The notes beneath the pieces are model-generated. The model was given only the letters and a program-made list of their open reading frames with translations, made no database searches and was not told where the DNA came from. The translations under genes were made by a program, and so were the position numbers. A stretch of 64,000 nucleotides of DNA from Crocinitomicaceae bacterium (GTDB lineage Bacteria; Bacteroidota; Bacteroidia; Flavobacteriales_D; Crocinitomicaceae). Below, in pieces: positions 29,207 through 50,785 of the stretch. The first letter of the stretch is position 1. Each line of letters opens with the position of its first letter. Location: assembly GCA_017984635.1 (NCBI GenBank), contig JAGNZC010000001.1:62001-126000 (forward strand), in the 5' to 3' direction.

Positions 29207-29265
29207 AGTTATTTATTATTAATTTAATTCTGAATTTGAAATGATCTGTTTGTTTTTTTGTTGAT

Positions 29266-29676: not shown

Positions 29677-29713
29677 TGTTTGATTTTCTATTCTTCACCT
29701 TATTGTCAGTTGC

Positions 29714-32158: not shown

Positions 32159-32159
32159 T

Positions 32160-33302: not shown

Positions 33303-33308
33303 GATTTA

Positions 33309-34385
33309 CTATACATGCACTAAATATTTTTCAGCTATCACAGACCAAACATATTCTTTAGCGGCAATTTCTTGCATTTTCTGTCCGTAAAATGGTAAAT
33401 CAAGTTCATTATGTTTTTCTAGCAACCCTACCAATTGTGCACTATCCTTAAAGAATAGTGCCTGATGAGCAGTAGTTTCTTCATTGTATTTGACAGCGAA
33501 AGCAAAAACAGGTAAGCCTAGTGACATTGCTTCCACTAAAGAGGGATTGGTGCCACCTGCAGAATGGCCATGAATATAAACTTTGCAACCACATCGAATT
33601 TCATTCAAGGTAGTTTGGTTATATATTGGATCCAATAAGTGAATATGCTTTAAAGAATCAAATTTCAGTCGCATTGTTTTGCCAAACTCACTGTTTTCCC
33701 AATTACCGACAATAACAAGTTGTAATGAGTTTTTTCGCGAAAAAGCTTCGAGAATCATTTCAATATTATTTTCAGGTTCTATTCGACACACTTTAAAGGC
33801 ATATTCTTGTTTAAGAAATGGATAGCTCTCTAGTGTTTCCTTACTGAAATTAACTGTCTTTGTATGGTCACCACCGTAAGGTATATAAACAGAATCTTTT
33901 CCATACGTAACTTTAACGTGATTTTGGATTTCAATGTTATCTGCAATAATGGCATCTGCGTATCGTACTGCTAACTTTTCAGAGTACTTCAGAAAGCCCT
34001 TCGTCAGTTTTCCCCATTTATTGCGTTTCCATTCTAAACCATCAATGTTGACAATGATTTTCTTTTTTGTAAACAGGCGTACAATGGGCAGAATGCAACA
34101 GCCTGAAACACCTAAAATTAAAAGTGTATCTGCAATAAAAAGCGCGTGAACTATAGAAAAAATATCATACGGAATACTTTGAACGCCATTTGCGTGTAAA
34201 GGAATATAACGTAAGCGAGCATTATTGTGTTTCTTTACCTTTACTGAATACGATTTACTACTACAGTAAACAGTAAGTTCTACCCGAGAGGAAAGGTGTT
34301 TGCTTAAATATTCTACCAGGGTTTCGAAGCCACCATACTTTGCAGGAATGCCAACGGAACCAATAATTGCAACTTTTTTAGACAT
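33309..34385 (-). CDS. Glycosyltransferase with DUF1972 N-terminal domain
   Basis: A 358-residue GT-B enzyme. Residues 1-180 match the DUF1972 domain (KVAIIGSVGIPAKYGGFETLVEYL). The C-terminal GT1/GT4 part has VCRIEPENNIEMILEAF near 208 and the sugar-nucleotide-binding AGGTNPSLVEAMSLGLPVFAF near 276. Family relatives are rhamnosyl- or related hexosyltransferases in capsule and O-antigen synthesis. It overlaps the previous gene by 8 bp and lies directly upstream of the degraded WecG/TagA gene. Confidence 0.88.
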   Translation of the reverse strand: MSKKVAIIGSVGIPAKYGGFETLVEYLSKHLSSRVELTVYCSSKSYSVKVKKHNNARLRYIPLHANGVQSIPYDIFSIVHALFIADTLLILGVSGCCILPIVRLFTKKKIIVNIDGLEWKRNKWGKLTKGFLKYSEKLAVRYADAIIADNIEIQNHVKVTYGKDSVYIPYGGDHTKTVNFSKETLESYPFLKQEYAFKVCRIEPENNIEMILEAFSRKNSLQLVIVGNWENSEFGKTMRLKFDSLKHIHLLDPIYNQTTLNEIRCGCKVYIHGHSAGGTNPSLVEAMSLGLPVFAFAVKYNEETTAHQALFFKDSAQLVGLLEKHNELDLPFYGQKMQEIAAKEYVWSVIAEKYLVHV

Positions 34386-35481
34386 TCAAAAATTTCAGTA
34401 TTTCAACAGTAAACTTGTCTTCTCTAAAATCAAAGGATCTTTCCTTTGCATTTCGAGATAATTCTAAGCATGTTTCTGGATTTTGGGAGAGAAATGCTAT
34501 TTTTTCTGCAATAGCATCTATTTGGTAAGATGAAATTAGATAACCTTCTTTACCGTCAATGACGATTTCAGATGGACCACCAACAGGAGGAACAATGACT
34601 GGAATACCAAAGGAAAGTGCTTCCAAAATTGTCAAGCCAAATGTCTCTAAACATTCATCTATTCGGGATAAATTCAAGACGAGGGATGCGTTGCCATAAA
34701 AAGGGATTACATCCGCTTGCTGTGGAAAAAAAATAATATTGGAAGGGAGGACTATTTTTTCAAAGAAAGCGTCTATTTCTTCTTGTGATGCATTCAAGAC
34801 CAAGGTAAATGTAATTTCTTCTTTGTTTTGCAGTTTTCTTGCAATTTCTATAAATTCAAATACCCCTTTGTAGGCTTTCATTGAAGATATCATGAGCACA
34901 TTAAACTTTCCTGTGCAAAAAGGCGAATAGACATGATTTACTGTTGTTTCTGCAAAATTGGAAGGCAGCGCATTGTACACAACGGATTGGGAAAGCCCAT
35001 CAAATGACTCCAAATTTTTAACAGAATGAGATACAAATACATTTTTTTGGGAAGTGAAGCGAATTACCTTTCTCAAAAATAACTTTAATCCTGGAGGAGT
35101 AATAGTGGTTTCATGAATGTGGTAAATTACCGGTTTACGCATCAACTTACCGGCTAAAGCGGCACCAAATGGTAACATTGTGTTGACATAAATCGTAACA
35201 TCCTTGCGCCAATATTTAAGTAATTTAACGAATAGTATCGCTTGAGAAAACAGGAAAGAAAACAAGGTGAAATACCTATTTTCAAAACGTCTGTAACTGA
35301 AATTTTGGTGATTGGGTGTGAGGTTCGACAAAAATCCGTTTGTCTGATTTCCAGTATAAAGCGCTATTTCACTATTTTTGGACTGCACTGCACGCACAAC
35401 TTGCGACAATACTTTGGGACTGCCACTAAAATCATTGAGGAGATGAACGAAAATAAATTCCGATGAATTACGCTTACTCAT
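34378..35481 (-). CDS. Glycosyltransferase family 4 protein
   Basis: A 367-residue GT-B enzyme. The N-terminal domain includes KPVIYHIHETTITP. The C-terminal donor domain has VLMISSMKAYKGVFEFIEIA near 195 and the E-x7-E type motif ETFGLTILEALSFGIPVIVPPVGGPSEIV near 280. It adds one sugar to the growing lipid-linked repeat unit. Four-base coupling with the upstream APH-like gene and an 8-bp overlap with the next gene place it firmly in the operon. Acceptor and donor are unknown. Confidence 0.9.
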   Translation of the reverse strand: MSKRNSSEFIFVHLLNDFSGSPKVLSQVVRAVQSKNSEIALYTGNQTNGFLSNLTPNHQNFSYRRFENRYFTLFSFLFSQAILFVKLLKYWRKDVTIYVNTMLPFGAALAGKLMRKPVIYHIHETTITPPGLKLFLRKVIRFTSQKNVFVSHSVKNLESFDGLSQSVVYNALPSNFAETTVNHVYSPFCTGKFNVLMISSMKAYKGVFEFIEIARKLQNKEEITFTLVLNASQEEIDAFFEKIVLPSNIIFFPQQADVIPFYGNASLVLNLSRIDECLETFGLTILEALSFGIPVIVPPVGGPSEIVIDGKEGYLISSYQIDAIAEKIAFLSQNPETCLELSRNAKERSFDFREDKFTVEILKFLNV

Positions 35482-36518
35482 TTGGAGTGAATGAATTTGA
35501 AAAGGCCTAAATAATCAGTTGCTGTTTTTTGCTCTTTGGCAGCATGCCAAAATAGAATTCGCTTAATCAAATAAAAGTCTAACAAGCACACAAAACTCAG
35601 ATTTATCTTCAATAGACGTAAATATTCCTGATAAATTTTAATATTATCCTGACTGAAAATAGTTTTGGTTAATTCTTTGGCTGAAATATAACGTACATTC
35701 GGATCGCAATAAAAATTAAACAAATCGAACATTGGCATACCTTGTAAATCCGCCTCTTCAAAGTCAAAAATCAAGATTTTATCGTAGCGGATGACATTCC
35801 ATGTTTTAAAATCATTGTGTACCAAACCTAGCGGTAGGATCACTGACTCGGATTTTAATTTCAAATCCGAAAGATGGTCTTCTAATATTCGAAATTGGGA
35901 CAGATCAAGATTCTCTAAGGTGTTCAGAAGTTGATCGATATAAGCATGAAACGATATTTCTCCTGATGGAGAAACCTGAAAGAATTCAACCATAGTTTGC
36001 GCTAAACTGTATTTTTCCTTACTCTTTTTTTGAATTTTATTGTTGTTCAGAATAAATGAACAATACTTATTTTCAATCTCTGTGAAATCTTGTAGTTCCG
36101 AAATTTGAAATGACCTTGGCCTTGTTTTGAATAATGAATAGATCGTTGCTTCATTCTTTACTTTGGCGTAACTCGTTCCAAAAGCAAATTTCTGAAAGTG
36201 TGTATTTTTGTGGTTTACGATTACCTTGTCTCGGGATGGTGAGATCAATACAGCAACATCTTCGTTGATGCCAAAATTAATACTGGTGTTAAACGCTTCG
36301 TATAAATACAGCTCTATTTGCTCCGCAGTTTTTAATTTTTTCCTGTACAATTTCCCAACTAGAATAGAACTCAAACTCAAGCCTATTTTCTTTAGCGTAG
36401 TAAGAAATGTTCGAGCTTTAAAAAACTTCAAAGAACGCAACACAAAGGAAAAAGACTTTGTGTTGATAATGAAGGTTGCACCGTTAGAACCGGAAAGAAT
36501 CCAGAAAATACTTTTCAT
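35478..36518 (-). CDS. Kinase-like protein of the APH/choline-kinase fold in the polysaccharide operon
   Basis: A 346-residue protein. The catalytic loop is GLVHNDFKTWNVI near residue 235 (Brenner-like HND...N) and the metal-binding loop is ILIFDFEEADLQGMPMFDLFNFY near 255, the pattern of aminoglycoside and small-molecule kinases. The N-terminal lobe is divergent, with no clear glycine loop. It overlaps the flanking glycosyltransferase genes by 4 bp on each side. It may phosphorylate a sugar, a polyol or an aminoalcohol used to decorate the polymer; this is inference. Antibiotic resistance is unlikely from its context. Confidence 0.7.
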   Translation of the reverse strand: MKSIFWILSGSNGATFIINTKSFSFVLRSLKFFKARTFLTTLKKIGLSLSSILVGKLYRKKLKTAEQIELYLYEAFNTSINFGINEDVAVLISPSRDKVIVNHKNTHFQKFAFGTSYAKVKNEATIYSLFKTRPRSFQISELQDFTEIENKYCSFILNNNKIQKKSKEKYSLAQTMVEFFQVSPSGEISFHAYIDQLLNTLENLDLSQFRILEDHLSDLKLKSESVILPLGLVHNDFKTWNVIRYDKILIFDFEEADLQGMPMFDLFNFYCDPNVRYISAKELTKTIFSQDNIKIYQEYLRLLKINLSFVCLLDFYLIKRILFWHAAKEQKTATDYLGLFKFIHSK

Positions 36519-37750
36519 TTTTTAGAGTTATCTAATTCAGCAAACAACTCTTCCATAAATACCCCTTTGGCATCCCAATTAAAAACCTCCCTAATTCTAG
36601 CCCTTCCAGCAGAACCCATTTCATCAATTAAGTTAGGTGTTTTTATTAATTTAATTACTGCTTCTGCCATATCTTTTGGCATTTGTTCCGGTGAGGAAAC
36701 AGGTAGTTGAATTGCACTTTTATTGTCTGTAATTATGTCCATTCCCGTCCATTTTAAACATACCACAGGTAATCCAATTGCCATGGCTTCCATCAGCGCC
36801 CAACTCCCCCCCTCACGAAGGCTTGGAAATAAAAAAATGTCAGATTCGATTAATTTCTCCAGAACTTCTTTACGTGTTATCTCAGAAATAACATTTATTC
36901 GATGTTCTAGTTTTAAATTTTTAATCTCTTTGTCAATTTTATATTTTTCAATTCCCGAGCCAATTATAGTGTATTTTACATTATAGGTTGGCGGTATAAA
37001 ATCAAATGCTTTTATAGCAGTTAAAATATTTTTAGAAGGCGTTAATCGACCTGTCGAAATTAATTTGAATTCATTTTTTCTAAAATCAGTGTTTTGCTTT
37101 CTCTTAAAATTAAAAATCTCTCTTTCCATTGCTGTTTCTAGAATAACCCTGGTTTTTTTCCTAAATAGCTTTGGTATTACTTGTGCTGAATTTTTTGTAC
37201 GCACTAAAATAATACATGCACTAACGCACGTAATCATGTAAAATGGATTTATAAAAGCTGCTCTATTTATGATTTTGCGGACATTTTGAATCATTCTTTG
37301 TTTGAGAGGAAGGGCTCTGATAAAAGAATTTGGTTCTCCTTCCCCACCTCCAATTGGGCCCCAAATAAAAGGGATATTGAAAAAGGGTAAAAATGTAGGC
37401 ATCCACATACTTCCAAATGTTAAATGCATAGAATAATCAAACTTTTGTTTCTTTTTTAGTTTAAATATTAGAGTAATAATTCCTAGTTGCCAGAAGAAAT
37501 AATAAAAATACAGGCCTTTTGCTTTATTTTTTAATCCCTTTATGAAAGGATGGGTGTCGTAATAATGAAAAGTTATATTCGGACTAACATCTGATGGTAA
37601 GTGTAATTCAATGACTTCCTGATTATTGGATCGGGTTATTACGTGTAGGTGATTTGTTTTCGCCATTTGTAATACCCAATTCCAGCCAACACCTTGTTCT
37701 GAACCTTTTAATGGCTCACAAGCATAAGCACAAACTAAAATTGTTCTCAT
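36515..37750 (-). CDS. Glycosyltransferase family 4 protein
   Basis: A 411-residue GT-B enzyme. It has ACEPLKGSEQGVGWNWVLQMAK near the start, FIWGPIGGGEGEP near 130, LISTGRLTPSKNILTAIKAFD near 230 and the donor-site motif FPSLREGGSWALMEAMAIGLPVVCLKWTGMD near 315. It is a retaining-type glycosyltransferase of the polysaccharide pathway acting on the cytoplasmic face. It overlaps both neighbours by 4 bp. The sugar specificity cannot be assigned. Confidence 0.9.
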   Translation of the reverse strand: MRTILVCAYACEPLKGSEQGVGWNWVLQMAKTNHLHVITRSNNQEVIELHLPSDVSPNITFHYYDTHPFIKGLKNKAKGLYFYYFFWQLGIITLIFKLKKKQKFDYSMHLTFGSMWMPTFLPFFNIPFIWGPIGGGEGEPNSFIRALPLKQRMIQNVRKIINRAAFINPFYMITCVSACIILVRTKNSAQVIPKLFRKKTRVILETAMEREIFNFKRKQNTDFRKNEFKLISTGRLTPSKNILTAIKAFDFIPPTYNVKYTIIGSGIEKYKIDKEIKNLKLEHRINVISEITRKEVLEKLIESDIFLFPSLREGGSWALMEAMAIGLPVVCLKWTGMDIITDNKSAIQLPVSSPEQMPKDMAEAVIKLIKTPNLIDEMGSAGRARIREVFNWDAKGVFMEELFAELDNSKK

Positions 37751-39132
37751 TTTAAAACTGTGGTGAATTTTTCAATTATAATCTTCATGGCTTCATTCAC
37801 AATCTCTCCGGGAGATTGTGAAGCATCCAAAACAACAAATCTTTTATCCGACTTAGCCAATTTAGAAAATTCACCAAGTTGTCTATTAATTTCATCGATT
37901 GTTAATTCTTGCTTTCGATTATAAATTGTTTCTGCATCTGTTAACAAAACGAATACGATACGTGGTTGCATAACAGTTTTGGAGAAAACTTTTCGAATCC
38001 AATAAGGCAAATTAATTCGAGAGCGGTGGGGATCAATTAAAAAATCATATATATAGCGATCGTAAATGGTAAATCTGTCAAACTGCACATCTTTACGAAG
38101 TTTGAATGGAACACCTATTAAATAATCTACCCAATAATAAGTCATTCTAATAAAGGAGCTACTAAACCCGGCTGGTTTAGCCCTGTGAGGGTTGGTAAAA
38201 TCCTTATCTTCCTTCATTACCTTAGCTTTTTCGCCAACAGCTCCAAGGTTCGGTAATATAGTTGGGCGATGATGATAGACATGGGATTTTGATTCTTCGG
38301 ACACGTTATAAAATGCAATAGCTTTTACAAGACCTTCAATAAATGTAGATTTACCAGTACCATCTGCACCTAAAACGGCAATGAAATTTTGAAATTTTCT
38401 AGGACAATAAATTATTCTATGTGTTTTTTCTAGTAAAAACTTTAAAACATTATACGTCGTTTGGAAAGGATTTTTAAAAAAAACTCGCGTTTTAGAAATT
38501 TTTGATATTTTTTTTGCGATTGTGATAATAGTTTCGTAATCATGATTCGATAAACAATCGATTATTATACCACTCATTTTATCACCCAATGTAGTTTTTA
38601 CTATTGCATTAATTTCAGCTTCATGCTTTTGGTAAATGAGCTTGATTTTTTCTTTATACTGCGGTTTTAACTGCTTAGTTCCGATTACTTTATAATACAA
38701 TAGCATAATTGCATCATATTTCTCATTTAATACCCTGAAATTCTTGAATTCTATCGTTTGGTTATACAATTCAGTAAATGAAAATATTTCAAAACCTTTT
38801 GAAAGATAACCCTCAATCAAGTCAATGTGAATGGAGAACTCCTTGTTATAATCCATACCATAAATGCAATGAACCCTTTCGTATTTTACCATACGATAAT
38901 GTGAGATACCGAATTTGAAAAGTATTTCTTTTAATAGAGTAAATGATCGCTTATAGGAACCAGGTTCAATAATTATATCGATATCCTTTGAATTGTTTAT
39001 TTGTGGTAACCCTTCAAAATTTCTTAAAATAAAGTACCTAATATGATTATCATTCATACGAACAATAAATTCTGAAAAAATATCAGAATGCACATTGGTC
39101 CAGGTACTTTGCTTTGTATTAAATTGAGTCAT
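37747..39132 (-). CDS. Fusion of a nucleotidyltransferase-like domain with a thymidylate-kinase-like P-loop domain
   Basis: A 461-residue protein. Residues 1-200 resemble nucleotidyltransferase-fold proteins: FILRNFEGLPQINNSKDIDIII carries the DIDI acidic pair near 52, with HIDLIEGY as a possible third acid. Residues about 245-460 form a P-loop kinase: Walker A VLGADGTGKSTFIEGL near 253, then FTIYDRYIYDFLIDPHRS near 350 as the thymidylate-kinase-like DR motif, and VFVLLTDAETIYNRKQE near 393. A simple dTMP kinase is unlikely. It may activate or phosphorylate a sugar or substituent for the polymer, but that is inference. Confidence 0.7.
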   Translation of the reverse strand: MTQFNTKQSTWTNVHSDIFSEFIVRMNDNHIRYFILRNFEGLPQINNSKDIDIIIEPGSYKRSFTLLKEILFKFGISHYRMVKYERVHCIYGMDYNKEFSIHIDLIEGYLSKGFEIFSFTELYNQTIEFKNFRVLNEKYDAIMLLYYKVIGTKQLKPQYKEKIKLIYQKHEAEINAIVKTTLGDKMSGIIIDCLSNHDYETIITIAKKISKISKTRVFFKNPFQTTYNVLKFLLEKTHRIIYCPRKFQNFIAVLGADGTGKSTFIEGLVKAIAFYNVSEESKSHVYHHRPTILPNLGAVGEKAKVMKEDKDFTNPHRAKPAGFSSSFIRMTYYWVDYLIGVPFKLRKDVQFDRFTIYDRYIYDFLIDPHRSRINLPYWIRKVFSKTVMQPRIVFVLLTDAETIYNRKQELTIDEINRQLGEFSKLAKSDKRFVVLDASQSPGEIVNEAMKIIIEKFTTVLK

Positions 39133-39135
39133 TGT

Positions 39136-39693
39136 TTATATGAAATTATCTCTATAGGATAAAGTCGCATCATCAACAGGGATTATTTTTCCGGGATTCC
39201 CAATCACTAATGAATTTGCAGGTACATCAAAATTCACGAAAGAATTCGGAGCAATCATCGAGTTATCTCCAATCTTACAATTTCCGATTATCGATGCATT
39301 CGCTCCTACAAAAACACCATCTCCTATAGTTGGTGATCCTTGATTTTTTCCTCTACGATTACTCCCAATTGTAACATCTTTAAAAATCGTTACATTCGAA
39401 CCTATTACAGCCAAGGGATTTATTGCGATTGCTCCAAAATGAATGAGTCTAAACCCTGGACCAATCTGAGTTTGATAGGGAATATCATAACCATATTTTA
39501 TGGTGTAATATCTTAATATAGGATAACATAAATATGAGATTAAACTTCGTTTATGTTTAAAATGATATGTAAATCTCAGCAAAAATACATATCGAAATTC
39601 ACTTTTATGTAAATGAGTAATAATGCTAAGAAAATTAACATTCTTTCCAATTATTCGATATAAATCTTTTTGTATAATTTCTTTAGTTTTCAT
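39136..39693 (-). CDS. Serine-acetyltransferase-like hexapeptide acetyltransferase
   Basis: A 185-residue left-handed beta-helix enzyme. The hexapeptide repeats run from about 85 to 165 (IGPGFRLIHFGAIAINPLAVIGSNVTIFKDVTIGSNRRG, then IGDGVFVGANASIIGNCKIGDNSMIAPNSFV). The His in RLIHFG is the likely catalytic base, as in serine and sugar O-acetyltransferases. In this operon it probably O-acetylates a sugar. I place the start at 39693, where ATG overlaps the upstream TGA. A TTG three codons earlier is less likely. Confidence 0.88.
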   Translation of the reverse strand: MKTKEIIQKDLYRIIGKNVNFLSIITHLHKSEFRYVFLLRFTYHFKHKRSLISYLCYPILRYYTIKYGYDIPYQTQIGPGFRLIHFGAIAINPLAVIGSNVTIFKDVTIGSNRRGKNQGSPTIGDGVFVGANASIIGNCKIGDNSMIAPNSFVNFDVPANSLVIGNPGKIIPVDDATLSYRDNFI

Positions 39694-40466
39694 TTCAACC
39701 AATTTCTAATTTTATTTTCAATTTTTTTGGTTTTATCCTTACTTATCACTTTTGATAATATATTTATTGCAATTCTTAAAATCGGTCGACAAACCTCAAT
39801 CCAGAAAATATTTTGCCCTCTTTTCTTTTGCCTTTCAGTAAGCCAACTACCTTCAAAATGATGGATTGCAACAGTGTTTTCAGTAATTCTAAATTGACCT
39901 TCTTTTATTTTTTTGGGAAAGAAATAATCTCGGGGGTATATATGAATACCAGAAGTTAATTGTTCTTCGCCATTAAAGTCTATTTTATATTGTTTTAATA
40001 TTTCTGCCAATATGGAAGGATTGGCAGTAATTTGTATATCTCCACTTTTTGAAATAAAAGACAACTCTTTATAGTGATTAGCAAAATCTATAAATATTTT
40101 ATGATTTGGTACACTAGCCATCATTGCAGTACCTATAAAGGTTTTGTTTTCAAAACCTAAAATAACATTGTCATTTTTTAATAGTTCTTCAAAACCAGAA
40201 AATACTTCTAAATCTGTATCTAAATAAATCCCGCCATATTCTGTTAATACATGAGCTCTTGCTAAATCACTAACAAAAGCATAATACCTATTATCATAGG
40301 CTTGTTTTGCAAAATGATGATTATTTAAATCAAAAGTTCCCTCATTCCAAAACATTAATTTATAATCAGGTAAAAATCTTCGCCACGATTCAATACATTT
40401 TAATTCTAAATCTGGAATAGGCTTTGGACCAAACCAACAATAATGTATTATTTTAGGTATTTCCAT
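39690..40466 (-). CDS. Glycosyltransferase with DXD motif (GT32-like)
   Basis: A 258-residue GT-A enzyme. The start EIPKIIHYCWFGPKPIP and the motif EYGGIYLDTDLEVF near residue 80, whose DTD binds metal and nucleotide sugar, mark the capsular-polysaccharide/TcdA-TcdB-like group GT32. The late HHFEGSW supports it. It transfers a hexose or hexosamine to the repeat unit. It directly abuts the polymerase gene and overlaps the acetyltransferase gene by 4 bp. Confidence 0.9.
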   Translation of the reverse strand: MEIPKIIHYCWFGPKPIPDLELKCIESWRRFLPDYKLMFWNEGTFDLNNHHFAKQAYDNRYYAFVSDLARAHVLTEYGGIYLDTDLEVFSGFEELLKNDNVILGFENKTFIGTAMMASVPNHKIFIDFANHYKELSFISKSGDIQITANPSILAEILKQYKIDFNGEEQLTSGIHIYPRDYFFPKKIKEGQFRITENTVAIHHFEGSWLTERQKKRGQNIFWIEVCRPILRIAINILSKVISKDKTKKIENKIRNWLK

Positions 40467-41656
40467 TATACAATTTTGAATTTGGTTTTATAAAAAGACA
40501 TGGTAAACAACAAAACCATACACAACCAAACAATTTGACTATTTATTCCACTTAAAAAAACCAATAAAAACCAAAATACATAGGTAAAATAATCCTTTCG
40601 ATTGATTGAAATCTTTAAGCTTGTAATCAGCAAAAGAATAAAAGACAAGAATCCATATTCGTACCACACCAGAAAAAAACCACCTCCCGAAACGTTGTCA
40701 CCTCCTCCAGGCATATACTTGTACATGAATGTGGAAACCGTGTCCACACCATGCCCCAATACCCCATTGAGATCGGAGAAATTCAAGAATTGAACAAGAG
40801 TTAAAAAAGGAACTACTCTAAACGAAGCACTGTGGTCTGCTTCTATTATTTTTTCTGGATTAAGTGTCAAAGTAGCTTGAAAAAAAGCAACCGTTCTGTC
40901 GATGGAAGTAAATCCTACCTGGTCAAATAACACAAACAAAACAATCAATAAGACAAACAAAGGGAAAATATTTTTCTTGCTAATTACTTTTAATAGAACG
41001 ATGGGGATAAATAAAAAAGCAGTACTACTTCCCATGGTGATCATAGTCCAAAAGAATGCCAGCCAAACCCATTTATCGTTCCATAAATCCTCCGAAAGAC
41101 TGTATTTTCGTTTGAATTTTATTTCACTCATACTCAAGTAGCAAAACATCAACAAAGCCATGATTCTTGCGGAATGTGAAGGTTCAGAAGATAAGCTATT
41201 CAATTTCCAAGGTTCGACAGGGTTATAATTACTCAAATTAAAAATTGGCAAACCCGTTAACACACAAAATTGTTGAACAAGCAGTACCAGAAAGTAAGCA
41301 AAAATCAAAAAGCGAATGAGTTTGTAAAAATGAAAAGCACTGAAAAAATTGGCATGAAGGAGTCTATTATAGGCCATAAAAGTCAAAAAGAACATCCACG
41401 AATAGAGAATGGTTGACCAACGGAGACTTTCCGGATGGAGTAAGACAGGCCCCAACGCAAGACTAGCTGCTGTCAATAGTATCCATACATCCAATTTTTG
41501 GTATTGGTTGTAAGCAAAAATGATAATCGGTGAAAGAAACATCACACCAATCAAGAGAAGATTTCTATTGTCATCACCCAATGCAAATGCCGGCGCAATT
41601 GCTAAAGATGTAATAATTAGATAGATGAAAAACCTATTTGCTTTTAAAGAAATCAT
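40466..41656 (-). CDS. Wzy-like polysaccharide polymerase
   Basis: A 396-residue hydrophobic protein with about ten to eleven membrane helices and a large periplasmic loop (about 290-335, with HGVDTVSTFMYKYMPGGGDNVSGGG). This topology and its place beside a Wzx flippase are typical of Wzy polymerases, which join lipid-linked repeat units in the periplasm. Sequence similarity among Wzy proteins is low, so the call rests on topology, the loop and context. Confidence 0.78.
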   Translation of the reverse strand: MISLKANRFFIYLIITSLAIAPAFALGDDNRNLLLIGVMFLSPIIIFAYNQYQKLDVWILLTAASLALGPVLLHPESLRWSTILYSWMFFLTFMAYNRLLHANFFSAFHFYKLIRFLIFAYFLVLLVQQFCVLTGLPIFNLSNYNPVEPWKLNSLSSEPSHSARIMALLMFCYLSMSEIKFKRKYSLSEDLWNDKWVWLAFFWTMITMGSSTAFLFIPIVLLKVISKKNIFPLFVLLIVLFVLFDQVGFTSIDRTVAFFQATLTLNPEKIIEADHSASFRVVPFLTLVQFLNFSDLNGVLGHGVDTVSTFMYKYMPGGGDNVSGGGFFLVWYEYGFLSFILLLITSLKISINRKDYFTYVFWFLLVFLSGINSQIVWLCMVLLFTMSFYKTKFKIV

Positions 41657-42534
41657 TTCTTCAATTTATTTTTTACTTGAAAGACTAAGTTCATCTCCAA
41701 CAGAGATAGCCACATCAAAGGCTTTAGCACTTCAGCTTTGATTTTTCCGTTTTTTCGGCATACGCGTGTAAACTCTAATACGCTTGTATACAGCAATTTA
41801 TATTTACCGACACTACTGTGAAAACTATTGATTGTTTTAGAGTGGGCATGAATATAGGTTTGGTCTAATACAATATAATTTTTCCAACTTTTAGTATGCG
41901 CAGCAACAGTAATAAATCGTTCTTCCACAAATAAAAAGGTGTTTGTATAAAAAAAACCTAAGGCTTTAAATCGTTCAAACGAAGAAAACATAAAACTACC
42001 AGGTACTAAATCCACTTCCATGGCATTTTTACCTGTGGTATCTTGAAAAGCTCTAATTTTTCGTCGGTGAAAAAGCTTAAAAAAATAAAAAAGGTTTACA
42101 CAATCATCCAGAAAGTTATTCATACTGTAAACTGGAACTTCTTTGTTGTTTACATCCAATTGTTTTGGAGCAATAATTGCAGCTTGTTCTAATTGTTTGT
42201 ACTTTTCAATAAGTCTTTCAAAACAATCGTTTTCGAGAACAACGTCATTGTTCAAGATGGCTACATATTCTGGATGAACGTTTTTGTCTAAATAATCTAA
42301 TCCAATGTTATTTCCCTTCGCATATCCGAGATTGGAGACGGTTTGTAAAACTTTCACATTCTTATAAGTTGACTCAAGTGGAATTAATTGTTCGTAAGAA
42401 TTGTTTGGAGAAAAATTGTCTACAATTAGAACAAACAAGTCATTAACAATTGATTGTTTTTGGAGCTCATTAACGAGATTAATTGTATCTTGAAAAGAAT
42501 TGTAATTGAGTATTACGACTGCTAAATCTGTCAC
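41653..42534 (-). CDS. Glycosyltransferase family 2 protein
   Basis: A 293-residue GT-A enzyme. The opening DLAVVILNYNSFQDTINLVNEL and the acidic motif YVAILNNDVVLE near residue 95 are typical of GT2, as is the VPGSFMFSSF segment near 178. It lacks membrane helices and probably acts as a rhamnosyl- or hexosyltransferase on the cytoplasmic face. It sits between the flippase and polymerase genes, overlapping the latter by 4 bp. Confidence 0.92.
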   Translation of the reverse strand: MTDLAVVILNYNSFQDTINLVNELQKQSIVNDLFVLIVDNFSPNNSYEQLIPLESTYKNVKVLQTVSNLGYAKGNNIGLDYLDKNVHPEYVAILNNDVVLENDCFERLIEKYKQLEQAAIIAPKQLDVNNKEVPVYSMNNFLDDCVNLFYFFKLFHRRKIRAFQDTTGKNAMEVDLVPGSFMFSSFERFKALGFFYTNTFLFVEERFITVAAHTKSWKNYIVLDQTYIHAHSKTINSFHSSVGKYKLLYTSVLEFTRVCRKNGKIKAEVLKPLMWLSLLEMNLVFQVKNKLKK

Positions 42535-42535
42535 T

Positions 42536-43846
42536 TTATTTTGATAAGATTGTTTGTTTAATAATAGAAAAAATCTTAATATTTTTCTTTTTAAGATCTC
42601 TAATTGCCAATCCTGTTATAACAGACTCACTAATTAAAAGAGACATGGCTGCACCTACTATTGAAAATTTAAATGCAAAAAGTAGGATCGCTAATAAAGC
42701 AATATTCACCAGTGCTCCTATCAAATAAATTTTAAAAAAATAATTGTCCATTTTAAACGCCAGTAAAACAATATTAAATAATACGGACGCTAGAGGAATA
42801 ATAACTATCAATGGAGAAAGAATTCTAAAAATTAATACTGATTGATCAATATTATCCTGAAAAATTAATTGAAAAATAGGATATGAAAATAAAACGCTAA
42901 TCATTAAAATAAAAAGTGATACTAATAAGGTATACTTTATTACTTTCCCTAAAAATAATTCAGCTTCTTCAGACGATTTTTTTACTAATTGTACAACATG
43001 TGGATAGATTACTTGTGTAAATGGAGAAAACAATGAAACAATGATCCGTATTACTTTTTCTCCAACAGCATAATAACCAACCATTATTGTGTTCGTAACT
43101 AGGCCTAAAACAAATGTGGTTGTTGCTGTATACAAATTAGTTGAAACTTTGGAAATGAATATAAACCATCCTTTTTGAAGCTGTTGTTTGATATATTTCT
43201 TTTTTTGAATTTTAAAAGGGATGTTAAACTGTCGATTTATTATAATTAAGGAAATAAAACCAATTACTAAATAGCCTAATGAATTTAGCATTGGAACCCA
43301 TAAGAAATCATCTGGGTTTTTCACTAAAACAAAAATAAATATGGTGAATATAGTTTTCGCTATTACAGATAGAATAGTAATATATTTCATTTTTTCCATT
43401 CCCTGAAAAAACCAAGTCGGAAATAAAGCATTTCCAATGACCAACCCGTACGTTAAGAAATATAATCTCCAGTCACTAGAAAATTTATCAAAACTAAAAA
43501 CAACAAATGCAAGAACTACAAATCCGATTAATACTAATGATAGACGCGCTATCAATATCGAATTATAAATTCTAGTGATCTTAAGTGAATTATTTTTATA
43601 AAATGAAATTTCTCTTACACCAGATAAATTAAATCCATAATCTGCGATTAACGTAAAATAAGTTATAAATGCTTGTGCAAAAACTACAAGTCCATATTTT
43701 TCAATTCCTAAGATTCGTACGAGGTAAGGAAAGGTTATTAAAGGTAAAATAAGGTTAACACCTTGTAGAATGGAAAGAGAAAAGAAATTAGAAATAAATT
43801 TCTTTTTTACATCTGTGTTGGCTAAGTTTTTGATTTTACGTATCAA
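42536..43846 (-). CDS. Wzx-type polysaccharide flippase
   Basis: A 436-residue protein with about 12-14 membrane helices of the polysaccharide transporter family. It opens with KKKFISNFFSLSILQGVNLILPLITFPYLVRILGIEKYGLV, the typical Wzx beginning. It moves the lipid-linked repeat unit across the inner membrane. It is the first intact gene of the variable core; upstream of it lie only a cupin gene and gene remnants. Confidence 0.93.
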   Translation of the reverse strand: MIRKIKNLANTDVKKKFISNFFSLSILQGVNLILPLITFPYLVRILGIEKYGLVVFAQAFITYFTLIADYGFNLSGVREISFYKNNSLKITRIYNSILIARLSLVLIGFVVLAFVVFSFDKFSSDWRLYFLTYGLVIGNALFPTWFFQGMEKMKYITILSVIAKTIFTIFIFVLVKNPDDFLWVPMLNSLGYLVIGFISLIIINRQFNIPFKIQKKKYIKQQLQKGWFIFISKVSTNLYTATTTFVLGLVTNTIMVGYYAVGEKVIRIIVSLFSPFTQVIYPHVVQLVKKSSEEAELFLGKVIKYTLLVSLFILMISVLFSYPIFQLIFQDNIDQSVLIFRILSPLIVIIPLASVLFNIVLLAFKMDNYFFKIYLIGALVNIALLAILLFAFKFSIVGAAMSLLISESVITGLAIRDLKKKNIKIFSIIKQTILSK

Positions 43847-43937
43847 CTATAATTGGTCTGTTTAATTTATAATGATTTTTTACAAAATAAGGCTTCAATT
43901 ACAATGTTTTTCTACTTGATTTATCTAAAATCGATTA

Positions 43938-44059
43938 ACATGATCTTTTCGGAAGTGTAATATATTATTACCTACTGAGATAAAAGACATTTTCCTCGTT
44001 CATTGAGAATTTTGGGGAAGTTCTGTTGGACGTTCTTCTATTTCACAATATTTAAACAT
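43938..44059 (-). pseudogene. Possible remnant of an FdtA/WxcM-like sugar 3,4-ketoisomerase gene
   Basis: From the ATG at 44059, 4 bp after the cupin stop, the minus strand reads MFKYCEIEERPTELPQNSQ and then a TGA. A neighbouring frame continues with NERGK, and the first frame then gives MSFISVGNNITLPKR. Together these resemble the N-terminus of FdtA-type cupins (…ERGxLSFIE…). Two frame disruptions and loss of the remaining sequence make it a fragment. The alignment is short, so the family call is tentative. Confidence 0.4.
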
Positions 44060-44062
44060 CTT

Positions 44063-44443
44063 TTATTCCTTTACAGTATTTCTTCCAAACTCATCAAATG
44101 CAACTTGATCTTCATCAATTTCCACTACATCTTTAGCGTTAAGTTCTTTCCCTGTTTGTATTTCAATAAAGATTAATTTTTGCGCCAGTGTATTTTCAAT
44201 CTTGTGAATGGCGCCTTTTGGTATTTGAATACAATCGCCTCTATTGAGGATGAATTTTTCATCATTGAGCGTTACTAAACCTTCACCATCAATAATCGTC
44301 CAAATTTCAGTTCGATGCTTATGAAATTGATAGGATAATTTTTTGTTGGGTCCTATTTCAATTCTATTGATTTTGTAATTCGTTTCATCATGAAGTAGGT
44401 ATGAACACCCCCAATCATAGTTGTCAAATGCTAAGCAAATCAT
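44063..44443 (-). CDS. Cupin protein related to the mannose-6-phosphate isomerase type II domain
   Basis: A 126-residue single-domain cupin. The metal-site motifs are KLSYQFHKHRTEIWTIIDGEG near residue 35 and DCIQIPKGAIHKIEN near 70, as in the C-terminal isomerase part of bifunctional mannose-1-phosphate guanylyltransferases (ManC/AlgA). It may interconvert fructose-6-P and mannose-6-P for GDP-mannose supply, or bind another sugar phosphate. It sits near the head of the polysaccharide operon, flanked by gene fragments. Confidence 0.8.
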   Translation of the reverse strand: MICLAFDNYDWGCSYLLHDETNYKINRIEIGPNKKLSYQFHKHRTEIWTIIDGEGLVTLNDEKFILNRGDCIQIPKGAIHKIENTLAQKLIFIEIQTGKELNAKDVVEIDEDQVAFDEFGRNTVKE

Positions 44444-44444
44444 A

Positions 44445-44657
44445 TTAGTTTAATTGGTCAATCTTTTCAGATTGGTTTTTTAAATATTCCTCAATTTGTG
44501 CTTGTTTTCTTCCGTTAATGAAAAACCAGCCCAACTTCTTATTGAACCAGTATTCAAATTTTAGTAGTAGTTTTTTCAATGGTATGTTTATAAGTTTGTT
44601 GCGTACATAGCTTCGCCCTTGCAAGTCACATCTAAAAATCGTAACTTGCTGTAAATC
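44445..44657 (-). pseudogene. 5'-truncated reading frame upstream of the cupin gene
   Basis: An open frame without a plausible start codon ends in TAA one base before the cupin ATG. It reads VTIFRCDLQGRSYVRNKL, KFEYWFNKKLGWFFING and KNQSEKIDQLN, a basic, aromatic-rich sequence of about 70 residues. I recognise no family. The close coupling to the cupin ATG suggests it is the surviving 3' end of a former operon gene. Confidence 0.45.
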
Positions 44658-44687: not shown

Positions 44688-45209
44688 TTAGTTATTCAAC
44701 GCGCTTACAAAAGAGCGAGGTATGTTTACAATATATTCAGCATTTAAAAGTTCAATTTTTACGAGTAGGCGGTGTTTGCCATTAACTTTAACCGATTCAG
44801 CAATGAGCCCTTTAAAAGGTCCTTGTTTAACCGAAACTCTTTGTCCTTTTTCAAATACTTCCGTTGATACTTGAATTTCCTCTCCGTTAAATTCTTTCTC
44901 AATAATTTTTAAATTTTCAATTTCAACATCTTTGACAATAGCAGGTTCTTTCAAATATTTAAGAACACCAACAATTCCAGTATATGCGTAAAATTGATCC
45001 AATGTTGTTTTTGCACAGTTCACAAAGACAACTGATGGGATAAGCGGCGAAATTATTTTTTTTTTCCGATCACTCCATTGCCGAATAGATACAACAAGAG
45101 GTAGGTAAACAGTATATCCATCAGTTGAAAGTAAAAGGCTAATTTTTTTTTCGTGTGCGGATTTAGTTTTTAATACATACCAATTGAATTCACTTTTCGA
45201 TTCAGTCAT
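44688..45209 (-). CDS. UpxY/NusG-like transcription antiterminator of the polysaccharide operon
   Basis: A 173-residue NusG paralogue. The NGN domain starts NWYVLKTKSAHEKKISLLL and has FVNCAKTTLDQFYAYTGIVGVLKYL near residue 80. The C-terminal KOW segment is KGQRVSVKQGPFKGLIAESVKVNG near 120. In Bacteroides the UpxY proteins prevent premature termination in the 5' leader of the capsule operon that they head. Its position as first gene fits. I start at 45209 (MTESKSEFNWYVLKT) because the longer frame adds an atypical 23-residue lead. Confidence 0.9.
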   Translation of the reverse strand: MTESKSEFNWYVLKTKSAHEKKISLLLSTDGYTVYLPLVVSIRQWSDRKKKIISPLIPSVVFVNCAKTTLDQFYAYTGIVGVLKYLKEPAIVKDVEIENLKIIEKEFNGEEIQVSTEVFEKGQRVSVKQGPFKGLIAESVKVNGKHRLLVKIELLNAEYIVNIPRSFVSALNN

Positions 45210-45260
45210 AACTATGTTTACAATACTAGATGACAAAATTCGAAATATTACATTGCTTAT

Positions 45261-45281
45261 TCTATGTGATAATAACATATT
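45261..45281. promoter_or_regulatory. Operator-like repeat, copy 1
   Basis: This 21-base site matches 45291-45311 with one difference. It has dyad symmetry, TATGT and ACATA separated by 7 bases. It lies between the divergent antiterminator gene and the XRE regulator gene. Confidence 0.6.
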
Positions 45282-45290
45282 TGATTAATA

Positions 45291-45311
45291 TCTATGTGAT
45301 AAAAACATATT
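45291..45311. promoter_or_regulatory. Operator-like repeat, copy 2
   Basis: The second 21-base copy starts exactly 30 bp after the first, close to three helical turns, so two dimers could bind one face of the DNA. It lies 14 bp upstream of the likely -33 element of the XRE gene. Confidence 0.6.
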
Positions 45312-45325
45312 GTATTCAAATCTGT

Positions 45326-45354
45326 TTGTCAATAGAATTAAAAATTTAATTTTA
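45326..45354 (+). promoter_or_regulatory. Likely promoter of the XRE-AraC regulator pair
   Basis: TTG at 45326-45328 and TAATTTTA at 45347-45354 are 18 bases apart. The -7 box differs from TAnnTTTG at its last base. The ATG follows 45 bases later. Confidence 0.4.
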
Positions 45355-45399
45355 GAAAGAAACTTACAACTTTTATAACTTATTGTATAACTATTCTTA

Positions 45400-45792
45400 A
45401 TGAAAAAGCTACATAAAAAAATCCGAATGTTAAGAAAATTTAACGAGCTTTCTCAGGAAAATATAGCATATGAATTGGGCTTAAGCCAATCTCAATATTC
45501 AAGGAGAGAAAATGGGGTAATTGATTTTTCAGTTGCTGAATTATTAAAATTGTGTAAAATATTTAATGTAAACTATGAAGAGATCTTAAATCCCAGTGAT
45601 GATTCTAATGAAAAAGAACGTTTAATACAAACTAAATTCGATTTATCAGACAAGGCTGCTATCAAAAATAGACAACATTCAATTATTGATTTTATACTTC
45701 AAGCGCTAGAAATTGTAGTAGAAACAGATTTGGAAATTAAAGAAAAAGAAGACATTATCAATTCTTTAAAGTCAAGATTAAACAAATATTAA
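45400..45792 (+). CDS. XRE-family transcriptional regulator
   Basis: A 130-residue protein with an N-terminal helix-turn-helix of the Cro/C1 type (KKLHKKIRMLRKFNELSQENIAYELGLSQSQYSRRENGVIDFSVAELLKLCKIFNV, residues 2-57). A helical C-terminal part of about 70 residues is probably a dimerisation region (IIDFILQALEIVVETDLEIKEKEDI). It is divergent from the antiterminator gene and next to two near-identical operator-like sites, so it likely controls the polysaccharide operon or itself. The AraC-type gene starts 8 bp downstream. Confidence 0.88.
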   Translation: MKKLHKKIRMLRKFNELSQENIAYELGLSQSQYSRRENGVIDFSVAELLKLCKIFNVNYEEILNPSDDSNEKERLIQTKFDLSDKAAIKNRQHSIIDFILQALEIVVETDLEIKEKEDIINSLKSRLNKY

Positions 45793-45800
45793 TAGAAAAA

Positions 45801-46529
45801 ATGGACAAGATTTTATATGTTTATGATTCATTGGTAGTGAAAAAAAAAATGCTTTCTACTATGGAAAGCATTGATTTAAAAATAACTCCTTCAAAATTCT
45901 CCATTCATTCATTCAAAGATATTGATTCGATAAATAAACATGATGTTTTAATCATAGATATATCTGTTAACCTAATAGAGTTGTTTATTGAAGATATAAA
46001 AAGTATTCATAAGCCAATTATTGTTATATTGAAAGAATACAATGAACAATTGCTAATGTTATTAAAAAATATTCGTTCATGTGAAATTAAAATGAGTCCT
46101 GTTCATATGAATGACATTCGTTCAACACTTTTTATATTTAAAACAGAACAAGTTGCAGAGCAACACGTTGACAAAAGTCAAATGCCTCAACAACTAATAA
46201 ATGTATTAGCATACATCGATGAAAACATCACAAAAAGACACAACATTAACGATTTGGCATTATTGACCAAGTGGCAATATGTTCATTTTATAAGGGTATT
46301 TAAAAAGCATTTACATTTGACCCCTCATCAATATATCTTAAAAAGAAAAGTATTGTATGCTAAAAATATTTTAGAAAAAAATGAAGTGAACTTAACAGAA
46401 CTTTCAAAGATTTGTGGGTTTATTTCGTATTCTAATTTTTACAATGCTTTTGTAAAGGAAACCAACCAAACACCTTTTAATTTCAAGTATAAAAACTTTG
46501 AAAGTAAATTGGAAAGACAAAAAAAATAA
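45801..46529 (+). CDS. AraC-family regulator with a degenerate receiver-like N-terminus
   Basis: A 242-residue protein. Residues 1-110 have the alternating strand/helix rhythm of a receiver domain (KILYVYDSLVVKKKML, DVLIIDISVNLIELFI, KPIIVILKEYNEQ) but lack the normal acidic pair and the conserved Lys, so phosphorylation is doubtful. Residues about 130-235 form a complete AraC-type double helix-turn-helix (LINVLAYIDENITKRHNINDLALLTKWQYVHFIRVFKKHL, then LTELSKICGFISYSNFYNAFVKETNQTPFNFK). It forms an operon with the XRE regulator. Confidence 0.85.
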   Translation: MDKILYVYDSLVVKKKMLSTMESIDLKITPSKFSIHSFKDIDSINKHDVLIIDISVNLIELFIEDIKSIHKPIIVILKEYNEQLLMLLKNIRSCEIKMSPVHMNDIRSTLFIFKTEQVAEQHVDKSQMPQQLINVLAYIDENITKRHNINDLALLTKWQYVHFIRVFKKHLHLTPHQYILKRKVLYAKNILEKNEVNLTELSKICGFISYSNFYNAFVKETNQTPFNFKYKNFESKLERQKK

Positions 46530-47690: not shown

Positions 47691-48614
47691 ATGGAAAATT
47701 TGATAATTAGTGATGAAGAGGTTGATTTTATTCTGAATAAATTGTTTTCAGATGAATACCCGCATTTTATACAAAGACTTAATGAAGCTACGTTTAGCAT
47801 TAATGACCTAAATATTCAACCTCGAGATGCTACCTATTGGGATAAACAGGGTGTGTTACCAAAAATAAAAGGGACTGGTATGCGTCGTAAGTATGACCTT
47901 GTGCAAAGTTTTTGGTTAAAACTTGTGCAACAAATGCGTACAATGGGAATTAGTCTATCTATTATTAAGAAGCTCAAGGAAAAAATGTTAGAGCCATATA
48001 TTGAGGGAAATGAAGTTAACCACGATTCACTCAAATTAATCGTAGAGAAATTAAATGCGAAGATGGATACTTCGTATAATGTTGATGAAGTTTTAGCGTT
48101 ATTGGAAAAGGAACAACCATCCATTTTTCAATCTTCTTTGATGGTTACGGTGCTTTTTCGAAAACAAATACACTGTTTAGTGAATAGTGAAGGGTTCTTT
48201 ATTCTTTATGACATAACAAAGCATCAAGAATTAATAAAGCTTAATGATGAATTTCATGAATTTATATCACAACCTTTTTTCTGTGTGAACCTTTCTAAAG
48301 CATACCAAACCTTGGTAAATGAATGGAGTACAAAAGATAACTTTTCAGAGTTTTCTCTTTTATCCGAGTCAGAATTGGAAATTTTAAAGCTAATTCGAAA
48401 AAATGACATTAAAAAAATAACAATTCGTTTTAAGAATGGTGAACCTTATTTAATTGAAGTAGATGAAACTAAAACAGCAAGTTTAGAACAACGTTTTTTG
48501 GATGTTATTTTAAAGAATGGTTACCAAAAAATAAGTATTACAGTTCAAAATGGCAACATAGCGAACTATGAGAATACAATACAATATAAAATTAAGAAAG
48601 TACTTAAAAAGTAG
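47691..48614 (+). CDS. MerR-like DNA-binding protein of the recombinase module
   Basis: A 307-residue protein. Residues about 30-100 resemble a MerR-type winged helix (FSINDLNIQPRDATYWDKQGVLPKIKGTGMRRKYDLVQSFWLKLVQQMRTMGISLSIIKKLKEKM), in which YWDKQGVLP fits the family's recognition region. The C-terminal 200 residues are not recognised and may sense a signal or oligomerise. It is divergent from the three small genes and upstream of the recombinase, so it may control excision or the module's own expression. Confidence 0.75.
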   Translation: MENLIISDEEVDFILNKLFSDEYPHFIQRLNEATFSINDLNIQPRDATYWDKQGVLPKIKGTGMRRKYDLVQSFWLKLVQQMRTMGISLSIIKKLKEKMLEPYIEGNEVNHDSLKLIVEKLNAKMDTSYNVDEVLALLEKEQPSIFQSSLMVTVLFRKQIHCLVNSEGFFILYDITKHQELIKLNDEFHEFISQPFFCVNLSKAYQTLVNEWSTKDNFSEFSLLSESELEILKLIRKNDIKKITIRFKNGEPYLIEVDETKTASLEQRFLDVILKNGYQKISITVQNGNIANYENTIQYKIKKVLKK

Positions 48615-48673: not shown

Positions 48674-48835
48674 TTGAAAATTAAAAAACAAAAATTTGAA
48701 AAACCATCAACACAGGACTTAATACATTTATTAGAAGGGAAGTTACCAGAGCATTTAACGCAACTACTTTTAGAGCAAATTGAGGAACTATGTTTGATAA
48801 TTATTGAACATTATGCAAGTAGACAAACGATTTAA
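48674..48835 (+). CDS. Small protein overlapping the recombinase start
   Basis: A 53-residue frame with a TTG start (KIKKQKFEKPSTQDLIHLLE, then LEQIEELCLIIIEHYASRQTI). It fills the gap between the MerR-like gene and the recombinase and overlaps the recombinase ATG by 23 bp, as in coupled genes. Its mostly helical, Leu-rich composition looks protein-like. No family recognised and the start is uncertain. Confidence 0.5.
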   Translation: MKIKKQKFEKPSTQDLIHLLEGKLPEHLTQLLLEQIEELCLIIIEHYASRQTI

Positions 48836-50414
48836 TCGATTTTCAAAGGGTAATGAAAAGTTTCAGAGCCCAAAAACAGATGCTGTCATTTATACACGTG
48901 TGAGTACGAAAGAACAGGCTGATAACAATGCTAGTTTGGATACACAGCTGAAGCATTGTAAAAAGTATGCTGAAGAAAAAGGATTAGATGTTGTAGCCTA
49001 TTTTGGTGGTACGTATGAAAGCGCTAAAGATGATGAACGGAAAGAATTTCAAAAAATGCTCAGCTTCGTTAAACGCAAAAAATCTATTGGATCTGTTATT
49101 GTTTATTCATACGATCGTTTTAGTCGAAGTGGACCAGGAGGAGCATTTATTTCTCACGAATTAAAAAAAGGAGGAATAAATGTTGTTTCTGTCACACAAT
49201 CAATTGACCATAATGACCCTTCTGGTAATTTCATGGAAGGGATTTACCATTTGTTTAGTGAATTCGACAATCAATTGCGAAGAGATAAGTCTATGACAGG
49301 TATGATTGAGAAGCTTAAGCAAGGATATTGGCCGTATATGCCACCTACGGGCTATACTAATATGAACCAAGGTAAAACTGCGGATTTGCATAAAATCGAA
49401 ATCAATGAGCGTGGTAAACTGCTTAAAAAAGCGTTTGAATGGAAAGCAAATGATGATTTAAGTTTAGAAGAAATTGCTAGACGATTGCAAGCAAGAGGGT
49501 GGGACATACCATCGAAAAGAGTGTCACATTTTTTTAAAAACCCATTCTATTGTGGTTTCATCGTTTCTAAAATGATACCAGGAGAAATGATAGAAGGGAA
49601 ACACCCTCCATTGGTTTCTAGAAGTACTTTTTTGAAGGTTCATCAGAACTTAGAAAAATTCTGGAAAGGTCCTTTAATTGAAAAAGAAGTAGCCGAATTA
49701 CCATTGAAGCAATTTGTGAAATGTGATTGTTGTGGAACAAGTATGACGGGTTACCTAGTCAAAAAGAAAGAAATTTTTTATTACAAGTGTAATTTGAAAG
49801 GATGTGGAAACAATCGCAGTCAAAAAGTTTTGCATCAAAAATTTGAAGATCTTTTACAATCCTACACCTATGAAAAAAAGTTAGCCCCTGCGATTAAAAA
49901 AATGTTTATTCATTTATTAACGGAACGAACAGAAATTAATGATGAAGGTCAAAAAGCAATGCAAGTTGAATTGGCAAGTCTCAAAAAGAAATTAGATAAA
50001 TTGGAAGAACGTTTCGTGAATGACGAAATAAATGAAACATTGTATCAAAAATTTAGAGAGAAATACCGCTTGAATATTGAGCAAATCGAGTCAGAATATG
50101 CAAGTTGTAAAAATCAGTTATCGAACCTTGAAAAAGCAGTAGATAAGTGCATGCGAATAGCCCTGGATCTCCCGTCAATGTGGAGAAACTCAACTTACAT
50201 AAGAAAACAAAGAATACAAAATTTGCTGTTTCCAGAAGGAATTAACTACAGCCGAAAAAATGATGATTATCGAACCCTAAAAATCAACCTACTATTTTCT
50301 GTAATCCCTTATTTAACGGGGCTTGCAGAAGGGAAAAAAAATGGGGATTTCAATTTTTCAACTGAAATCCCCACTTGGGTGGTCCCACTTGGAATCGAAC
50401 CAAGCACCTACTGA
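48813..50414 (+). CDS. Large serine recombinase (site-specific integrase)
   Basis: A 533-residue recombinase. The resolvase catalytic domain (about 25-170) carries the nucleophile Ser in YTRVSTKEQ and the arginines of YSYDRFSRSG. The recombinase domain (about 180-275) includes PPTGYTN and ARRLQARGWDIP. Zinc-ribbon cysteines CDCCGTSM and CNLKGCG (about 305-335) and a coiled coil (about 375-450) follow. It integrates or excises DNA by double-strand exchange. The last 12 codons (to PLGIEPSTY) are antisense to the tRNA, so the gene end sits in the attachment region. ATG 48813 is preferred over TTG 48804. Confidence 0.93.
   Translation: MQVDKRFNRFSKGNEKFQSPKTDAVIYTRVSTKEQADNNASLDTQLKHCKKYAEEKGLDVVAYFGGTYESAKDDERKEFQKMLSFVKRKKSIGSVIVYSYDRFSRSGPGGAFISHELKKGGINVVSVTQSIDHNDPSGNFMEGIYHLFSEFDNQLRRDKSMTGMIEKLKQGYWPYMPPTGYTNMNQGKTADLHKIEINERGKLLKKAFEWKANDDLSLEEIARRLQARGWDIPSKRVSHFFKNPFYCGFIVSKMIPGEMIEGKHPPLVSRSTFLKVHQNLEKFWKGPLIEKEVAELPLKQFVKCDCCGTSMTGYLVKKKEIFYYKCNLKGCGNNRSQKVLHQKFEDLLQSYTYEKKLAPAIKKMFIHLLTERTEINDEGQKAMQVELASLKKKLDKLEERFVNDEINETLYQKFREKYRLNIEQIESEYASCKNQLSNLEKAVDKCMRIALDLPSMWRNSTYIRKQRIQNLLFPEGINYSRKNDDYRTLKINLLFSVIPYLTGLAEGKKNGDFNFSTEIPTWVVPLGIEPSTY
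50296..50382 (+). repeat. Right copy of the direct repeat bounding the island
   Basis: The copy spans the last part of the recombinase gene, the terminator of the tRNA and the tRNA's final bases. The match with 27784-27868 ends at 50382, inside the acceptor stem. Confidence 0.8.
50334..50373 (-). terminator. Terminator of the tRNA gene
   Basis: On the minus strand TGGGGATTTCA and TGAAATCCCCA form an 11-bp perfect stem with a 10-base loop, followed by T8, 7 bp beyond the tRNA end. It also encodes part of the recombinase on the other strand. Confidence 0.88.
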
Positions 50415-50453
50415 TTATGAGTCAGTTGCTCTAACCGAATGAGCTATAGGACC
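50380..50453 (-). tRNA. tRNA with anticodon CAT, probably tRNA-Ile2
   Basis: The minus strand folds into a full cloverleaf: acceptor GGTCCTA with TGGGACC, D-stem GCTC/GAGC, anticodon stem ACTGA/TCAGT around CTCATAA, T-stem CTTGG/CCAAG with TTCGATT, and discriminator A. Anticodon CAT could read AUG as elongator Met, or AUA as Ile after lysidine modification. C4-G69 and C5-G68 in the acceptor stem are known determinants for the lysidine synthase TilS in E. coli, which favours Ile2. CCA is not encoded. It lies against the island's right end. Confidence 0.9.
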
Positions 50454-50464
50454 AGAGCAAGCGA

Positions 50465-50730
50465 AGCTTGCGATTATTCAAGCGTTAGCGCAGAATCCCT
50501 TCTTAACCTAGCTTGCGATTATTCAAGCGTTAGCGCAGAATCTCTTCTTAACCTAGCTTGCGAATCTTCAAGCGTTAGCGCAGAATCCCTTCTTAACCTA
50601 GCTTGCGATTATTCAAGCGTTAGCGCAGAATCTCTTCTTAACCTAGCTTGCGAATCTTCAAGCGTTAGCGCAGAATCTCTTCTTAACCTAGCTTGCGAAT
50701 CTTCAAGCGTTAGCGCAGAATCTCTTTACT
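50465..50730. repeat. Six 45-bp tandem repeats immediately 5' of the tRNA
   Basis: Units start at 50465, 50510, 50555, 50600, 50645 and 50690; the last is incomplete. Each contains GCTTGCG, then CAAGCGTTAGCGCAGAATC. They alternate between ATTATT and ATCTTC variants near the start. On the minus strand each unit could form a small GCUUG/CAAGC hairpin. They lie between the tRNA and its best promoter and are thus likely transcribed as leader RNA. Confidence 0.92.
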
Positions 50731-50785
50731 AACAATCCCTAAAAGATGTTTTTTCAATTAAGAATAGAGCAATCTTTTCGGGTTG

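Follow-up and report, generated by a model that had tools for sequence, protein, structure and literature searches.

How would a long polysaccharide operon be controlled when its first gene encodes a transcription antiterminator and stands back to back with genes for two DNA-binding regulators? Such a locus lies in the window, the 64,000-nucleotide stretch of Crocinitomicaceae DNA analyzed here. An upxY gene heads a run of polysaccharide genes on the minus strand, and genes for an XRE protein and an AraC-type protein lead away from it on the plus strand (Table 1). The initial annotation described this arrangement as a compact switch, with DNA-binding control at the promoter and antitermination along the operon.

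Table 1. Positions of the features discussed in the text, numbered from the first nucleotide of the window
Feature	Coordinates	Strand	Remarks
Minus-strand gene run downstream of upxY	28145-44443	-	Polysaccharide genes; left end as an operon provisional
Flippase gene	42536-43846	-	In the run downstream of upxY
Cupin gene	44063-44443	-	In the run downstream of upxY
ops-like element, TGTGACT-TGCAAG-GGCGAAGCTATG	44606-44630	-	58-82 nt past the stop codon of upxY; proposed site of pausing and UpxY loading
upxY, UpxY-family transcription antiterminator	44688-45209	-	First gene of the polysaccharide operon; NF033644
Intergenic region	45210-45399		Separates the starts of upxY (45209, minus) and the XRE gene (45400, plus)
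Box 1, TATGTGATAATAACATA	45263-45279		Operator-like palindrome, upxY-proximal; 53 bp from the upxY start
Box 2, TATGTGATAAAAACATA	45293-45309		Operator-like palindrome, XRE-proximal; 90 bp from the XRE start
XRE regulator, 130 aa	45400-45792	+	Helix QSQYSRRE; HTH_3/HTH_19 (Pfam) above cut-off; proposed binder of both boxes
AraC-type HTH protein	45801-46529	+	Downstream of the XRE gene; atypical receiver-like N-terminal part

The twin 21-bp sites on which that view was built are confirmed in position and sequence. The copies TCTATGTGATAATAACATATT (45261-45281) and TCTATGTGATAAAAACATATT (45291-45311) are identical at 20/21 positions and start 30 bp apart, in agreement with the claimed spacing of about three helical turns. 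The repeat can be extended to a unit of 30 nt that is 83% identical between the copies, and both copies enclose a perfect 17-bp TATGT-N7-ACATA palindrome (boxes 1 and 2). Could this be a functionless tandem duplication that arose by chance? The region is AT-rich and the 30-bp unit does resemble a tandem duplication, but dinucleotide shuffles of the window give an expectation of 0.10 TATGT-N7-ACATA palindromes per 64 kb, two occurred in no shuffle, and the box recurs at homologous XRE genes of several families. We consider a chance origin extremely improbable.

Nor is the motif common in this genome: a search of the whole 2.65 Mb, a check that the initial annotation had proposed, returned only these two exact copies, and five matches to a reversed control pattern. 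The condition named there as refuting the switch, a motif common genome-wide, therefore does not apply. A longer form of the box, searched at a tolerance of 2 mismatches, was matched in the genome no more often than the control was, and hence a wider regulon is not apparent. The twin-box arrangement is absent from all others of the 395 genomes of the class; no perfect box was found beside the upxY homologues of relatives, and the relatives of the XRE gene do not carry twin boxes.

The XRE protein is the strongest candidate for a box binder. It is a Cro/C1-type HTH protein (HTH_3, 39.7 bits; cut-off, 23), and it shares the recognition helix QSQYSRRE with its relatives in other Bacteroidota, at an overall identity of about 30%. 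All loci compared were counted with the window's XRE excluded, and a box was scored as at least 9/10 matches within 200 bp upstream. By this measure 8 of 13 XRE genes with an SQYSRR helix have the box upstream of their own start, as do 3 of 48 with other helices (Fisher p 6e-5), and the half-site ATGTGAWW was present at 9/13 and 2/48, respectively (p 2e-6); the SQYSRR proteins are related by descent, so that the counts are not independent and both p values are optimistic. A reversed control motif occurred in neither group, and five of the 13 helix-matched genes are without a box at the 9/10 threshold. Boxes within 200 bp upstream of the XRE starts read TATGTGATTAGAACATA in L063, TATGTGATTTAAACATA in L074, and TATGTGAATACAACATA in L077. 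Among three loci added once the hypothesis was fixed, L197 has a perfect box, TATGTGATTTCAACATA, at -45, and L198 and L199 have partial boxes only. A perfect TATATTTG, the Bacteroidota -7 promoter element, follows the box after 5 bp in L063 and L077, so that the box covers the -33 region, an arrangement that fits autorepression by the XRE protein. Since XRE genes for proteins with this helix have such a box at the promoter, both boxes in the window are very likely bound by the XRE protein.

Palindromic operators at their own promoters are known for several small Cro/C1-type HTH regulators. The nearest solved structures by profile are the small repressors and controller proteins C.AhdI, PezA, and SinR. 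The XRE protein differs from these in that no restriction-modification or toxin partner was recognized beside its gene, and both the operator sequence and the C-terminal part are peculiar to this Bacteroidota subgroup. Further palindromes were seen near the box at two of the related loci. In L081 the copies AATGTCTCAATCACATT and AATGTGATTGAGACATA face each other at a distance of 20 bp, about 95 to 131 bp upstream of the XRE start, and L074 has a second palindrome, TATGTTCCAATTAGAACATA, 62 bp upstream of the ORF start.

The initial annotation assigned DNA-binding control to the XRE and AraC-type proteins as a pair. The XRE half of this assignment gains from the boxes at same-helix relatives; the AraC half found no support. 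An AraC-type HTH is present and its gene directly follows the XRE gene, so the protein might bind the boxes, alone or together with XRE, and activate the operon. The box, however, tracks the type of XRE helix and not the AraC-type protein, whose closest homologues (36-44% identity) have neither such boxes nor SQYSRR XRE genes adjoining in the loci examined. AraC-family proteins, moreover, usually bind asymmetric or direct-repeat sites, which speaks against palindromes as their targets. We regard AraC-type binding as very unlikely. The N-terminal part of the protein can be aligned to receiver domains in three homologues, but it has lost the conserved lysine and part of the acidic pocket (ED to YD). 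The protein is therefore probably an accessory regulator that works independently of phosphorylation.

Close to these regulator genes lie genes for a MerR-type protein (47691-48614) and a large serine recombinase (48804-50414), possibly a mobile element adjoining the polysaccharide locus. Just after the recombinase gene, at 50420-50771, six copies that overlap one another recur in tandem every 45 bp, a stretch that we read as a repetitive ORF.

Does the XRE protein also control upxY? The boxes might serve XRE autoregulation only, with a separate and unaffected upxY promoter and an accidental neighborhood. That reading would fit the relatives, where the box lies near the start of the XRE gene and the gene on the other side differs from locus to locus (secreted proteins, RiPP clusters, and others); none of the relatives searched had an XRE gene divergent from upxY. 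Against it, the boxes in the window stand about midway in the 190-bp region common to both genes, and relatives, too, stand divergent from biosynthetic clusters. Examples are the XRE genes of L077 and L078, whose divergent neighbors encode lantibiotic dehydratase and LanC. These two loci, from Flavobacteriaceae, probably hold class I lanthipeptide clusters, and they suggest that the SQYSRR proteins form a subfamily of local pathway regulators. Small precursor-like peptides were noted beside their LanB and LanC genes (L077, 5645-5836; L078, 5639-5830). On balance, autoregulation alone appears unlikely, though it is the most serious of the alternatives, and from the position of the boxes we somewhat favor joint control by XRE of its own XRE-AraC promoter and that of upxY.

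Promoter predictions contributed little here: a scan for sigma-70-type promoters gave no excess over shuffles, and a scan with the Bacteroidota -7/-33 consensus gave no convincing promoter for upxY or the XRE gene in the window. An invertible promoter of the kind found at Bacteroides capsule loci was considered and rejected. Unlike those loci, the window has no inverted repeats flanking the intergenic region, and the sole inverted pair is low-complexity poly-T/poly-A.

The second half of the proposed switch, antitermination, depends on what upxY encodes. Its product reaches 133.4 bits with the curated model NF033644 (cut-off, 100) and 62.7 bits with the RfaH model TIGR01955, below the cut-off of 144.5; it is also below the cut-offs of the LoaP and NusG models. 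Membership of the antiterminator in the UpxY family is firm on these scores. The minus-strand run that follows contains a glycosyltransferase and other polysaccharide genes besides those in Table 1. Together, the NF033644 score and this run bear out the earlier description of a polysaccharide operon headed by an UpxY-like gene and divergent from the XRE/AraC pair. Family and first-gene position are the same as in the UpxY capsule operons of Bacteroides fragilis, and UpxY proteins avert premature termination in operon leaders (PMC7819879). In the UpxY-UpxZ system of Bacteroides upxZ directly follows upxY; in the window the next recognizable gene is that for the cupin and not an identified upxZ, with a 44-residue reading frame in between.

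A candidate signal for UpxY was revealed by comparing the sequences downstream of upxY homologues. The heptamer GCGAAGC is found about 50 to 200 nt after the stop codon in 11/11 homologues that were testable and had 39% identity or higher (the window included), and in each of these it is preceded by TGKGACT or a close variant. Combined as TGKGACT-N5/6-GGCGAAGCYRT, the pattern has 66 matches, a count that includes the loci used to derive it, in 56/390 genomes of the class, and the reversed control has 0. The single match in the genome under study is the element after upxY. A NusG-like ORF lies within 1.5 kb, always on the strand of the element, in 17/30 element loci (L166-L195), and the element is located just before upxY in some lineages and after it in others. 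Elsewhere the element often stands ahead of polysaccharide genes, at several loci (ABC permease, export protein, UDP-sugar dehydrogenase, GDP-fucose synthase), and at a few it precedes genes of other kinds, for example those for an integrase-like or a nuclease-like protein, all gene names at loci without a NusG-like ORF being read from the sequence with no model search. Near more distant UpxY homologues, in L146, L148, L159, and L160, GCGGAGC replaces GCGAAGC.

The element resembles the ops site of RfaH: both are pause-like sequences of 12 nt in which GC/GC arms enclose a small loop on the non-template strand. Its consensus, GGCGAAGCCGTG, aligns without gaps to E. coli ops, GGCGGTAGCGTG, at 8/12 positions with the outer frame kept; the window copy matches ops at 6/12, and the ops sequence itself is not matched. 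In ops the C3:G8 pair closes the loop of the non-template strand and is required for the recruitment of RfaH (PMC5995543). The element differs from ops in its loop, where GAA replaces GGTA, and in the extra conserved upstream box TGKGACT.

The GCGAAGC mini-hairpin is exceptionally stable. As a DNA mini-hairpin it has been used in published designs of stable aptamers. When the element was folded as DNA, stems were predicted for copies with a G-C outer pair and none for the window copy, which has a G-T outer pair. Searched against Rfam, eight element loci gave nothing at the gathering threshold, and two weak Rfam matches in the window were judged to be chance.

A second likeness is to LoaP of Bacillus velezensis, also a specialized NusG paralogue that serves a long biosynthetic operon through a recruitment signal in the leader. 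The LoaP signal is a UNCG-type RNA hairpin, and the paper describing it refers to evidence of contacts between UpxY and the upstream DNA duplex (PMC12691694). If the polymerase pauses at the terminal T of the element, the TGKGACT box would lie in that upstream duplex. The window protein falls short of the cut-offs for both RfaH and LoaP, and its putative signal is downstream of upxY, whereas the B. fragilis leader is described as upstream of the gene.

The sequence and conservation of the element indicate that it probably loads UpxY onto RNA polymerase, and its presence so soon after upxY strengthens the earlier claim of antitermination along the operon. About 55 nt beyond it on the minus strand (44525-44551), a terminator-like hairpin is followed by a T-rich stretch; this AU-rich hairpin, which lies within a small reading frame, is a possible target of antitermination.

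Our best explanation of the locus joins both halves. The tandem palindromes would be operators of the divergently encoded XRE protein. XRE dimers would occupy each of them, and the distance of about three helical turns makes cooperative binding probable. Bound XRE would repress, rather than activate, transcription of the XRE-AraC pair and of the upxY-headed operon from their common region. Once repression is lifted, the polymerase would transcribe upxY first and then pause at the downstream ops-like element, where UpxY would load and carry it through the long operon. We hold this explanation, taken whole, to be moderately probable. Thus, of the compact switch first proposed, the XRE protein as box binder and the antitermination step have gained ground and the role of the AraC-type protein has lost it, while the control of the upxY promoter is something that we infer.

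What does the finding mean beyond this operon? Alone, the promoter switch would add modestly to current knowledge, in the form of a predicted operator for an uncharacterized XRE subfamily that stands beside biosynthetic clusters. The ops-like element is the weightier part. The recruitment of RfaH by a hairpin in the non-template DNA is well described in Proteobacteria, whereas in the literature searched we found no consensus loading signal for UpxY proteins of Bacteroidota and no account of such an element; coverage was partial, and Bacteroides elements may already be described. We are evenly divided on the broadest reading, in which TGKGACT-N5/6-GGCGAAGCYRT would serve throughout the Bacteroidia as a general signal for the loading of UpxY. 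It would combine a mini-hairpin of the non-template strand, GCGAAGC within a pause-consensus frame, with a box in the upstream duplex, and would let UpxY act in cis beside its own gene and also in trans on other polysaccharide operons; at the locus in the window, together with the XRE promoter switch, it would provide two-step control of one operon. The element is short and nearly invariant and can be changed base by base, which makes the loading of UpxY directly testable.
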